Shown here: piece after piece, positions 13,116-59,120 of the stretch
Layout: every line of letters begins with the position of its first letter
How positions within the stretch are numbered: the first letter of the stretch is position 1
Source: Sipunculus nudus
Lineage: Eukaryota; Annelida; Sipuncula; Golfingiida; Sipunculidae
DNA length: 64,000 nucleotides
Direction: 5' to 3'
NCBI GenBank assembly: GCA_026874595.1
Contig: CM049307.1
Span: 43,840,362 to 43,904,361, forward strand
Made by a program: the position numbers and the translations under genes
The notes under the pieces: model-generated
What the model was told of the DNA's origin: nothing
The model's database searches: none
The model's input: only the letters and a program-made list of their open reading frames with translations

Positions 13116-13400
13116 GCATGCTGTTGCGAACCATAATGTAATAAACGGCCCATAATGTAATAACGGCCCATATTGTGATAAAAACGACCCATAAAGTAAT
13201 AATCATACCCTGCCCATATTGTAATATAACTGGCCCGTACTGTAATAAAGGCCCATAATGTAATAAAAAGCGGCCCATATTGTAATAATGGCCCATATTG
13301 TAATAAAAACGACCTATATTGTAAAAATCATACCCTACCCATATTGTAATAAAATGGGAAGTGGGAAAAAGGGCCCATATTGTAATAACATATGTAACAG
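13116..13400 (+). repeat. Left inverted-repeat array of the fold-back element
   Basis: About a dozen imperfect copies of CCCATAWTGTAATAA separated by ACGG, AAAACG or ATCATACCCTG linkers. It pairs with 17168-17381 in inverted orientation. Confidence 0.85.
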
Positions 13401-13724
13401 TTCAAAATTGAATCCCAAATCTAACAGGCGATATGTCGTTTGAGAATACCTTCTAAAATGACAGCCATTTTGGTTCCTCGTTAGTATAAGAGATGCAGTC
13501 ATAAAGGAAATCCAGTGAAACAGTCAACATTTATGTTGTCTACGTAAATTTGACATGCAATTAATCATAATCTTCTAAACGACATTTCTTATATATTTCT
13601 TTTACAATATTGGCCTTTTTGGCCATTTTAGCCCCCACCATGCTGATTACAGTATAGGTGAGGTAAAGTTATTACAATGTTACTCATTTATTATTAGGGT
13701 ACTGGCAATTATTATAATATTGGC

Positions 13725-13852
13725 CGTTTTTACAACAAAATAGGCAATTTCTACTACAATATTGACCATTGTTACAATACTGGTCTTTATTACAATATGA
13801 GTCGTAATAACGACCCAGAATGTAATAACCGTCCCATATTGTAATAACGGCC
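13725..13852. repeat. Internal mixed-orientation array of the same unit
   Basis: The first part has TTACAATATTGRCC-type units (minus sense). The last part has CCCATATTGTAATAACGG units (plus sense), with the switch near 13800-13812. It may be a remnant of an earlier inner terminus. Confidence 0.7.
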
Positions 13853-13854
13853 AA

Positions 13855-13942
13855 TATATATATATATATATATATATATATATATATATGTATATATATA
13901 TATATATATATATATATATATATATATATATATATATATATA
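13855..13942. repeat. (TA)n microsatellite
   Basis: TA tract of almost 90 bp with one G interruption. Confidence 0.95.
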
Positions 13943-14348
13943 TGGAATACTAACCAAGGAAAACCCCTAGCAATAGGCCATTGGGATTGGGTGAGGCATA
14001 ATGTTTGGATTCATTTTGTAATTTCTTTACTCCTTTGAGACCAGGGCATTCACATAATGCTATGAATAGTAATTAGCAAAAATAGTAAATAGCAATATAG
14101 CATATGACTGACAAATTAACTGGGAGCAAAATCTACTCCTTCCCTTTTCCCACGCATTTACTATTACCGATCATTTGCGGGTAACCGGGGGTGGGGGTGG
14201 GGGGGGGGGGGGGTTTGACCGTGAGGGGTTGGGGTGGGGTGGCGGGAAGGGTGGAGAAGGCTGAGGAAGACCTCCCTTGCGATCGCTCGGCGATTGCAAA
14301 CATCTGGTTTTTCACTTATTGTACAAACATGCAGTTGTAATAATTACT

Positions 14349-14400
14349 GGGAGGCACTCTCCATGGCTCAGATGGTAGCGTTCGGTAGTCTTTATAGGTC
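14349..14400 (+). mobile_element. tRNA-like scrap (box A only)
   Basis: TGGCTCAGATGGTAGCG fits the Pol III box A. A box B is not convincing, and CTTTATAGG-type sequence is duplicated just after it. Probably a degenerate SINE head. Confidence 0.35.
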
Positions 14401-55662: not shown

Positions 55663-55834
55663 TACATTTACATGCATGTACTTATATATATATATATATA
55701 TATATATATATATATATATATAGGCGCGTGCAGATTATATGTACATATATGCATGCATATGTATATATAAGCGCACGCATGCATATATGTACACACACAC
55801 ACACATATAATTAGTTACATATGCATATTCTCAT
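55663..55834 (+). repeat. Segment A, second copy
   Basis: Second copy of 55361-55508 with a longer TA tract. It continues into sequence (ATTCACATGAATGACC) not found after the first copy. Confidence 0.95.
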
Positions 55835-56170
55835 ATTCACATGAATGACCGTTATATTTTCATCCGACATGCCTTAATTGTGTACTGCAATACATGCTAA
55901 TATATATATATATATATATATTATATATATATATACATATATTTACCTATATATACACATATGATAATAATGGTATAGCTGTGTTATAGTCTGTAGACAA
56001 AGTTAATAGTAGGTAAAGAGAAAGAGTGACGTCTTTTCGATAGACTAACTTGTGTGTGTTATAATATGTAGATATAAATGAAGAATGATGCAGATTGCCA
56101 TGTCCACAATTACACACGCACACATGAAAGACGCGGTTAATAATGAGACAGACGCAAGGTGCGTGCATAT
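55835..56170. other. Intergenic with (TA)n
   Basis: TA tracts near 55902-55935; otherwise unique and unremarkable. Confidence 0.5.
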
Positions 56171-56765
56171 AAGGACTCAAAAGTAAACTACACTGTTTAT
56201 GAAGAGCAGGTGCGCGCTTCATTAAAATCCAAATTAACAAGCATAAGCTTAATGGTGACGGAGGCTGAATACGGATCGTCAGCCAGTCTGATTGTACCGG
56301 GGGTGACCTGGAAGGAAGAGGGGTGCGATCTCCCGGGGAGAGAAGACATAGATGTCTCATAAGGAGCCACTTGTTTCGTTACATCAAAGTAAATTGCGAG
56401 TCTCTGTAACCGGGGTTTACTGCCGCGTCTGCAGAAAAGCCGCGCGCGTGTTTCACCCCGCTCGCTCCACGGGGGGCGCACCTAGCAACCGTGCATTTAT
56501 TTTAAATTATGCTAATTAATGATACCCGTGAGGCCTTTGATACAGCGCTTCAATGTATTTCTGGCGAATGATGGATGGATTAAGAGGTCGGGTCCTGTGC
56601 GAAGTAATCTCTGTTTTGTTCCGACTTATTGAGCCTATTGTATTTTTATAATGTATTCCGCCCGGTATATGAGTTAGGCGTGACGTCAGCGGATGCGGCT
56701 AATCGCAGGATCATAGTGATGTGCTCCTCAAGCACTTTATAATTACGCGTAGTAAATCCTCAATG
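56171..56765. promoter_or_regulatory. Candidate conserved regulatory block containing original segment B
   Basis: Unique and GC-richer, with CG-rich sites (CGCGCGTG, GGGGGGCGCACC) and homeodomain-type TTATGCTAATTAATG near 56507. It ends with segment B (56568-56713). About 4.4 kb downstream of the neurogenin coding exon. Function is inferred from composition and from the nearby near-identical copy. Confidence 0.35.
56568..56713 (+). repeat. Segment B, probable source copy
   Basis: Embedded in unique sequence on both sides, unlike the copy at 55507-55652 that sits in AT repeats. It is therefore the more likely source. Contains TGACGTCA. Confidence 0.95.
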
Positions 56766-57119
56766 AAAATTTATAAAATTCCGACTAAAATAGGTGCACC
56801 TGCTGGATAAAGTAGTTCTGACATTCGATCAGAATATTAATTATCGGTTACTCGTTAAAGGAATGGGTATTTATGAAGGTCTGTAAATTATACCTGTTAA
56901 CACTGGTGTGATTGGGAGATGTATAGATCAGAAAATGATATATATTCGAGCAACATGATTCTCACATTTGCCGCCAATTCGATCACTAATAATAAGCAAT
57001 CCGTGAATTTTATATAAATGCTCTGAATGATGTCGAAAAAGCCTTGGGCAAGATGTGTTTGCAAAGTTATTAACCAAATCATTTTGTCCCAGTTGAGGTA
57101 CCCCTCCTATTGTTGGGAC
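56766..57119. other. Intergenic, nothing recognised
   Basis: AT-rich unique sequence. Confidence 0.5.
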
Positions 57120-57975
57120 ATACAAACAGGAAATGTTCACCCCATGGCGAAGCAACAGTTCCTCAGCTCACGTTAAGTCCGTCAAGGGAGGCAAGGCTAC
57201 ATCATATCATCCCCGTCATCACCCGCTGCTGAGTTATAAAGGTGCGACTGCACGAGACCCACCGGGACTTGGTATAAAACTTTCGCCAACAATGACCGGC
57301 CAACGTTATTTGCGGCTTTTCATCACGGCTCACCGGTTCGCCGGACCTCTCACTAATGACTCCCTCTCTTTCACGGAACCATCTCTGGCGGAAAGAAGCG
57401 AATTTTATTCCCCATCAGGTTTTCGAGGGCACCCGCCGCTGAAAAGAAAGAATTCGGCACCACTATTGTCCGGGGGTTCTTTGTGAGACTGTCTGCCACG
57501 CGCCCAACTGGGGCTCGAGGAAACTCAGACAAAAGGGGCTCGCGTGCACCCAACTCACGGCCAAGTTATGGAAGCCCTCAGCAGACGAAATGTCACTTTC
57601 TTTTGTAGCTGGTTACCAAAAGGTCCTGATGAGGTTGATAGTAAAAAGCTAGACATTAAAATGATTAATCTTTTGAAGTCGCGCCTACCAAGTCGGGATG
57701 ATATACACGAGCCGTAAATGGGCGACCTCGGTTTTACCTGTGTCGGTCACATGGTAGCGGGCCCTGTAATTCGGCAGTGTTATTAGTTGGCCTCACACTA
57801 TAGTCCCTATTGGGTTGCCGGTTTTCTGTGCTCCAGTGAAAGCCCCATCCCCCTGACACCTGCCTCACCTGGAAACGATTATTATTAGTGGTAACCGGGC
57901 TTGATATTAAAACGGTCAGACCTCTCTGGATAAGCCGGCGGGTATATAAAGAACTCCCTGAGTGTCGTTTACATT
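57120..57975. other. Unique GC-richer block, candidate regulatory element
   Basis: Free of simple repeats. A plus-strand frame of 117 codons (57133-57486) ends in a Ser/Pro/Lys-rich stretch but has no recognised domain, and minus frames overlap. It could be enhancer DNA or an unrecognised exon. Confidence 0.25.
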
Positions 57976-58390
57976 TTTGCACAATTAATATTTAAAAATA
58001 AATTTTCATATTATTAGATAATATAATGCCATGCATAGAATGTACGCTAACTTATGACTCACTTCAGGCTAAACAGCCTCTATAATTTTTATTTTCGCCC
58101 CATTTCGCCGAAATAATAAAATTATTTATTTTGTGTATTTTAAATGAAGCAATTAATTCAACCTCAGTTGTAGATGGACCCAAATTGTAATTACTTAACT
58201 ACAGTAAGTTCAGCGGGATTTGCGTATATCAGTGTAAGATTATTCGTGTGTGTGTGCGTTCTTTATAATGTATGCATTTAAACAATAAAAGCTCATCAGT
58301 CAAAATATTGGGCGTTCAAGCATTCGTTTCTTCTCAATTCTACTCACCCATAATTAAATTTTCTTTGTCGAGAAGTGAAATGGAATACTT
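57976..58390. other. Intergenic, nothing recognised
   Basis: AT-rich unique sequence. Confidence 0.5.
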
Positions 58391-59120
58391 TCCCGGGTTT
58401 AAAGACCAGATTATTCCCTATTTTTGTTACCCCCACGCATTTAATTTGAAATTCGAATACCCCATTGGTATAGTCTGAAACAATTTCAGATTACCCCCGC
58501 ACTGTTCAGATTATACCCCCTCGCTGATTTCACCAAATCAGAAATCCTTACGATTCAATCTTATGAAAAATTATTTAAATCAACCATGCACGTGAAAGAT
58601 ACGAGATTTAAAAGAAGGGATCAATCTGTGAAAACAATAAATTGTCGTAAAAATTATATTGTTCATTATATTTCTGTTGAATCATACACTTCATCAAAGC
58701 GAATGACGCATAAAGTGCAAACATGTAAGATATACAAAAAATCAAACTAATTTGAGAAATCAAGAAGAAAAAAAAATAAAGAATTTTATGTAAATAAACA
58801 CAAACAACAACTTTTCCCGCGGGGGGGGGGGAATCAAAACTCGGGGGCGGGGGCCTAACCCACAATCGATTTCAAATTATACTGGGGGTATTCTGAAAGC
58901 GATTTCAAGTTACCCCGGTATTCTGGAATAGATTTCAAGTTTCCGGAGGTAATCTGAAATCGATTTTAAGTTACCGTGGGTAATCTGAAATCGATTTCAA
59001 ATAACCGGGTTAAATATGAAATAGATTTCAACTGACCGGGGATAATCTGGAATCGATTTCAAATTATCCCTCGGTGATCTTCATGGCTGCAGCTGCATGG
59101 GCTAATCTGAACTCGATAGA
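58391..59120. mobile_element. Element with 31-bp palindromic-unit arrays at both ends
   Basis: The right array (58864-59120) has six or seven units of about 31 bp: GATTTCAAGTTACC, a GGGTAATCTGAAATC half, then the next unit. Each unit is a near-palindrome (GAAATCGATTTC plus TTACC...GGTAA). The left array (58391-58545) has fewer, more diverged units in inverted sense (CTGAAACAATTTCAGATTACC, CAGATTATACCCCC) and a CCCGGGTTTAAAGACCAGATTA unit. That last unit recalls the TATACCCGGGTATA family. The centre is AT-rich with a G-run and no frame of note. Confidence 0.7.

Follow-up and report, generated by a model that had tools for sequence, protein, structure and literature searches.

Among the described transposons mobilised by integrases of the Gypsy type, Ginger1 elements (Bao, Kapitonov and Jurka 2010, PMC2836005) are characterized in the published description by TGTNR ends, end repeats of ~110 bp, a 4-bp target duplication (CCGG or CCGT) and a transposase that combines H2C2 and DDE domains with a C-terminal OTU or Ulp1 domain and with GPY/F and YPYY motifs (some of the genes containing introns), while Ginger2/TDD elements are given TGTNR ends and a 4-bp TATA duplication within the target RTATAY; 5-bp duplications are attributed, among the families described there, to TDD-4/5 only. 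Terminal inverted repeats that are long and contain tandem repeats are reported for the Foldback-like Drosophila elements Galileo and Tetris (PMC3688188, PMC4079207), in the former of which they hold several transposase-binding sites (PMC3688188) and in the latter of which they have expanded into satellite arrays (PMC4079207), and the hAT element Hermes carries near its end a quasi-palindromic pair of repeated sites to which the transposase binds cooperatively (PMC10368747). Here we analyse a 64-kb stretch of the Sipunculus nudus genome (hereafter the window; G000:C2:43840362-43904361, from a 1.43-Gb genome in 153 contigs), in which a sequence-only reading had distinguished at least seven repeat units (here families A to G) and ascribed them to one shared architecture and to one amplification mechanism or one enzyme source. 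We consider it likely that four of these families (A, B, C and D) are non-autonomous Ginger transposons, with TGT...ACA termini and inverted repeats built of unit arrays that would act as binding sites for the transposase.

Family B is a Ginger1 family. Its window copy (15149..16240, + strand, 1092 bp, ends TGTAACAGGCC...GGCCTATTACA) is a non-autonomous element inserted in an element of family A and flanked by the target duplication CCGG (15145..15148, repeated at 16241..16244), and a 57-bp B-like relic (TGCAGCAGGCC...GGCCTACA, with CCGG on its left) is present at 48826..48882 (+ strand). Among 49 B loci examined (L039-L068, L077-L095) 32 had a single left and a single right end, and the flanking 4-mers were identical in 23 of them (CCGG in 22, CCTG in L079) and different in nine. 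Most ends start with TGTAA or TGTAG, as expected from the TGTNR pattern, with few mutated ones (e.g. TGCAG in L084), and the array is 95-100% identical over 145-150 bp in the first 25 matches listed. Furthermore, a B end at L097 (C2:55713660; 96.7% identity over 152 bp) leads into three open frames, which encode an H2C2 zinc finger (PF17921, 28.9 bits, cut-off 25.5), an OTU domain (PF02338, 36.2 bits, cut-off 23.3) and a DDE integrase match that stays under its own cut-off (rve, PF00665, 8e-6, 26.5 bits, cut-off 32.6), together with a GPY/F-like stretch recognised by eye (LEPLWTGPYTV; SH3_Tf2-1 18.3 bits, under the cut-off of 30); the zinc finger, integrase and OTU domains are features of the published Ginger1 transposase, and end repeats of ~110 bp are likewise common to B and Ginger1 (PMC2836005). 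The first 442 bp of the window copy (minus the first base) match the L097 end at 95.3% (448 alignment columns); in four longer B copies the match to it, at ~95%, extends over 740-746 columns. Because the C-terminal 24-31 residues of the transposase persist, at 93.5-100% identity, in 10 of the 30 loci L039-L068 (the coding locus L061 not counted), the B loci are deletion derivatives of Ginger1. The sequence-only reading had described the families as lacking a coding centre; no transposase frame was seen in the window copies, but family B has a coding relative elsewhere. Further clear relatives of the transposase were detected on contigs C6, C5 and C13 (43-78% identity), with a shorter one on C1 (45%), and most other matches (24-33%) have a Gypsy-like look. 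A B-type array whose end is degraded (88% over 127 bp, L100) is situated ~1.6 kb away from the C6 relative (C6:28672058-28674332). Two loci with long frames (L101 and L102) were rejected as autonomous partners, since by eye they resemble Gypsy retrotransposons.

Families A and D also possess transposon ends bordered by target duplications. The A element of the window (13122..17376, + strand, 4255 bp including the nested B, ends TGTTGCGAACC...GGGTAGTAACA) is enclosed by two copies of CATGC (13117..13121 and 17377..17381), and its mirrored arms (left 13122-13391, 270 bp; right 17159-17376, 218 bp) are rows of directly repeated, non-palindromic units of 18-21 bp. Genome-wide, exact occurrences of the unit number 684+665 (reversed control 0), and the ends of copies outside the window mostly read TGTTACRACCCATAATG. 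Identical 5-mers were found in 10 of 12 two-ended copies (L014 agrees in 4 of 5 bases, L069 in 3 of 5), a count from which L002 (TGCCC/ACGTC) was left out, its right end lying inside an array; the pairing table of 40 rows contains nine identical pairs, and most of its other rows pair an outer end with an internal match. The duplicated target is GC-rich, approximately GCNGC (42 called ends, some elements being represented twice, once per end, and L002 contributing at least one internal site), and the combination of TGTNR ends with a 5-bp duplication is that of TDD-4/5 within Ginger2/TDD (PMC2836005). The 218-bp right end is 95-100% identical in the best 40 of 898 candidates (window copy included), and the matched array stretch measures 216-218 bp in all 30 loci fetched; as the A and B sets consist of best-ranked copies chosen by similarity, this constancy of the arrays is a biased estimate.

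For family D the window contains one end (TGTCACAGGCCGGATC followed by the array; 29456..29720, + strand, right limit approximate), with TGCATA as its left flank; no right end could be located. In the genome the next 39 matches by rank show identities of 71-87%, and a TATA flank is present at 16 of the 22 called ends, the other six being three internal matches and ends with TAAA, TATG and CATA (the query included the ATA flank of the window copy, which may slightly favour such copies). Five two-ended copies were recovered: L104, L106 and L107 have intact ends and TATA on both sides, L105 is flanked by TAAA/TATA, and in L103 (TATA/TATA) the left end, situated in a TA run, is mutated; a sixth, L108/L109, likewise has TATA at either end and was not counted, because its flanks are themselves inverted repeats. 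A stricter end pattern, starting with TA, occurs 17 times in the genome (control 0). These TGTNR ends and 4-bp duplications in RTATAY are the ones published for Ginger2 (PMC2836005), the window end itself having CATA. An array in a D-like style, with alternating CCTAGGCGAGATT, was also observed in a 2134-bp element (H; L097:3310-5443) nested in the Ginger1 stretch, which is probably young, judging by its perfect 136-bp inverted repeat with TATATATA on both sides.

Family C is likely to be Ginger1 too. In the window it is degraded (58391..59125, + strand, limits approximate, ends not clear) and by eye contains units of both the B type (CAGATTATTCCC) and the C type (GATTTCAGATTACCCC). Of five C-type loci fetched, two start with CCGG followed by TGTACCGATTTCAG, one with CAGG followed by TGTAGCG, and two are without a clear TGT end; three of the five stay 96-97% identical for ~2.1 kb and contain no long frames, and in L119-L121 (C-type, each >2 kb) no open reading frame (ORF) exceeds 91 amino acids.

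When the 16 end bases were compared without gaps (TGT, common to all, counted), B and D agreed in 14, A and B in 10, A and D in 9, A and C in 8, B and C in 6, and C and D in 4, and by eye CAGATTA..CCCCC is common to the units of B and C. Because of the end-base matches (above all B with D) and of the likeness of the B and C units, B and D, perhaps with C, look related and A appears to stand apart; the supposition that every family had an independent origin is contradicted by the 14 bases that B and D have in common. The units of C alternate in strand more than shuffled ones (a value reached by 52 of 20000 shuffles in the window and by 0 of 20000 in L073), those of D reach an alternation attained by 437 of 20000 shuffles in the window and 219 of 20000 in L104, and in B the effect is marginal (1018 of 20000). 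Reversed-unit controls, which cover the window arrays (L073 and L104 lying outside them), gave 3 versus 15 matches for B and 1 versus 21 for C. The B ends differ from Ginger1 as published in being largely alternating palindromic arrays: the string ‘palindrom’ is absent from the main text of PMC2836005 (the end sequences of the published families were not compared), and a limited literature search, including passages of PMC2836005, PMC10045372 and PMC12863088, found no description of such arrays in Ginger ends.

By analogy with Galileo and Hermes, we argue that the arrays are probably multiple binding sites for the transposase. Galileo resembles the elements described here in its long, internally repeated ends and differs in belonging to the P superfamily (no sign of a P-type enzyme was seen, and none was searched for), whereas Hermes, with its repeated quasi-palindromic sites, is a member of another superfamily and has short interspersed sites in place of long arrays (PMC3688188, PMC10368747). 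A transposase provided by autonomous Ginger elements elsewhere in the genome would bind the array sites in trans, pair the two ends, excise the element and reinsert it (presumably by cut-and-paste), each insertion leaving the target duplicated over a few bases (CCGG in family B, TATA in family D and 5 bp in family A), and the arrays would be passed on together with the element. The idea of one enzyme source acting in trans may thereby be kept in a narrower form, as enzymes of the Ginger class are plausible for four of the seven families (a coding relative having been found for B). Tandem copying of the end motif would account for the growth of the arrays themselves, the copied stretch in B, C and D being for the most part an internally dyad-symmetric unit of 28-34 bp, and expansion may be continuing at some loci: the A end is repeated three times in 642-bp steps at C2:15495118-15496542, so that growth of A arrays in place is possible, D units recur in 56-bp steps at C14:1908055-1908504, and L073 holds 33 C-type units in a local tandem expansion. 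The seeding of satellites by Tetris (PMC4079207) fits these expansions. Local amplification, as the sequence-only reading had it, is seen at some A, C and D loci.

Several observations weigh against the assignment of A, C and D to Ginger, or against details of the Ginger1 case. No similarity to a transposase was found in the A loci examined or in the D copies L103-L107 when one Ginger1 and two Gypsy queries were used, and six C-type stretches gave only weak matches, none with an E value better than 0.078; moreover, L107, a 5.6-kb D copy, has no ORF longer than 97 amino acids. In family C two of the five loci start with TGTAC, which breaks the TGTNR pattern, one starts with TGTAG and two with neither, and no right end was found in the C-type loci fetched. 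The D array of the window is weak at the threshold used, its reversed-unit control giving 14 versus 17 matches. At L097 the frames are interrupted, either by breaks or by introns, the left flank is TCGG instead of CCGG, and the right end was not reached within 6.2 kb. The 1.5-kb stretches fetched next to the C13 and C5 relatives (L098, L099) yielded no B-type array. A common end of B and D with different targets is left unexplained by the published division into Ginger1 and Ginger2, and the local tandem expansions at A, C and D loci indicate that arrays can change in place. Finally, the 5-bp GC-rich target of A is unlike those of Ginger1 and of animal Ginger2.

This last point bears on the alternative that survives best, namely that the enzyme acting on A is an integrase-type one which belongs to neither Ginger1 nor animal Ginger2 (being, for example, TDD-like or of a new group) and makes 5-bp GC-rich duplications. 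Its TGTTA ends and 5-bp duplications, together with the lack of similarity to pieces of the Ginger1 transposase in the A loci examined, speak for such an enzyme; against it stand the fact that no coding A element was seen and that TDD-4/5, for which 5-bp duplications are known, were placed in Ginger2 by the authors who described them (PMC2836005). We regard this alternative as a possible but somewhat doubtful one. It is unlikely, in our opinion, that the families represent unrelated classes which gained repeated ends separately, with B the only Ginger1 among them: such a history would agree with the differing targets, with the direct tandem units of A as opposed to the mostly alternating ones of B, C and D, and with the failure to find a transposase for A, C and D, but A, B and D all start with TGT and end with ACA, B and D have nearly the same end, and D obeys the target rule published for Ginger2. 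A single replication process that amplifies palindromic units in place and independently of any transposase (rolling or template-switching copying of hairpins) is highly improbable, for while G is a local tandem array whose unit has a dyad, the units of B, C and D alternate in strand and tandem expansion has occurred at C2:15495118 (A), C14:1908055 (D) and L073 (C), such expansions need no hairpin step (ordinary tandem duplication would suffice), G was found at one locus only, and the arrays of A, B and D are dispersed, end at defined termini with target duplications and, in the similarity-picked sets of A and B, vary little.

Within the Ginger interpretation of families A to D, we tentatively raise a further proposal, which we hold to be rather doubtful: that there is a Ginger lineage with dyad-symmetric arrays in which the end TGTNACAGGCCAGAT is common to B (targeting CCGG) and D (targeting TATA). 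Were it true, target choice would have switched and end recognition been kept, which would make the lineage a bridge between Ginger1 and Ginger2; alternatively, two integrases would make use of a single binding domain. From the description of Ginger2/TDD in PMC2836005 our families differ in the D end, which agrees with that of B (a Ginger1) at 14 of 16 bases, and in the GC-rich target of A. The comparison suggests that seemingly independent repeat families can be relatives that differ in their choice of target; puzzling palindrome arrays would become transposons that have, or can be given, a name and whose enzyme can be tested, and would offer a natural case for studying the recognition of long repetitive ends by integrase-type transposases and their choice between CCGG and TATA.

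As to the seven units themselves, their existence is real when the window is scored against 100 dinucleotide shuffles, with one correction. The A unit GGCCCATATTGTAATAA has 18 matches (0.07 expected), the B unit TATACCCGGGTATA three (two of them within the element; 0.43 expected, three being reached in 1 of 100 shuffles), the C unit GAAATCGATTTC eight (seven within the array; 3.3 expected, eight being reached in 1 of 100), the D unit GATCTGGTCTA 24 (10 within the array; 13.8 expected), the E unit 11 (nine within the element; 3.5 expected) and the G unit 49 (0.04 expected, some sites being counted on both strands). The string originally given for F has no match at up to two mismatches and two at up to three; the actual unit, GTGCCCACTTTATAGAG, has six at up to three mismatches (0.14 expected). 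The description of the units as near-palindromes is accurate for three of the seven (TATACCCGGGTATA 14/14, GAAATCGATTTC 12/12, CACTGTATATGCAGTG 14/16), whereas in the remaining four no shift brings more than 6-8 positions into agreement with the reverse complement. Similarly, arrays are mirrored at both ends in A and in B (arms at 15186-15255 and 16103-16172) and weakly so in C; a single end of D was found in the window, and E and F are not mirrored, since their units lie on one strand (all nine inside the E element and five of six in F). The seven units therefore share no single architecture, and in part they resolve into ordinary transposons of different classes, the duplicated target being 5 bp and GC-rich in A, CCGG in B, TATA in D and TA in F (one copy). 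A single class for all seven was ruled out, as G is confined to one locus and the ends of E and F are of other types.

To judge from their termini, E and F look like members of classes other than Ginger. hAT elements are defined by an 8-bp duplication and a short terminal inverted repeat (TIR), and the single E copy (20720..21555, + strand) is hAT-like by its ends (TIR match 16/18; flanking 8-mers TTCTATAC/TTCTCTAT, identical at 6/8 positions). Tc1/mariner/pogo elements are marked by a TA duplication and a short TIR; the single F copy (25339..26666, + strand) has CAGTCGAACCT ends that match at 11/11 positions (an 11-bp TIR) and TA on both sides, so that it appears to be a TA-duplicating element, with ends that we take to be akin to those of Tc1/pogo. 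Family G is a minisatellite locus (32640..38250, + strand, limits approximate) made up of directly repeated 52-bp units with a dyad in the unit; its final part runs in inverted orientation. All 26 of its genome matches fall at the window locus (in a search that scored three candidates and skips very common words). An unrelated element (35409..36941, + strand, TIR TAGTCCATGA, flanks GCAT/GCAT) lies inside it. Two direct copies of an 89-bp sequence that contains TTCGCGA-type words were also observed; they are 90% identical, one lying among the first G units (32892-32980) and the other after this insert (36994-37082). Elsewhere in the window we noted a tRNA-Val (AAC) gene on the minus strand (3036-3108) and an open frame of 315 amino acids (51248-52195) that by eye resembles a neurogenin-type bHLH protein.

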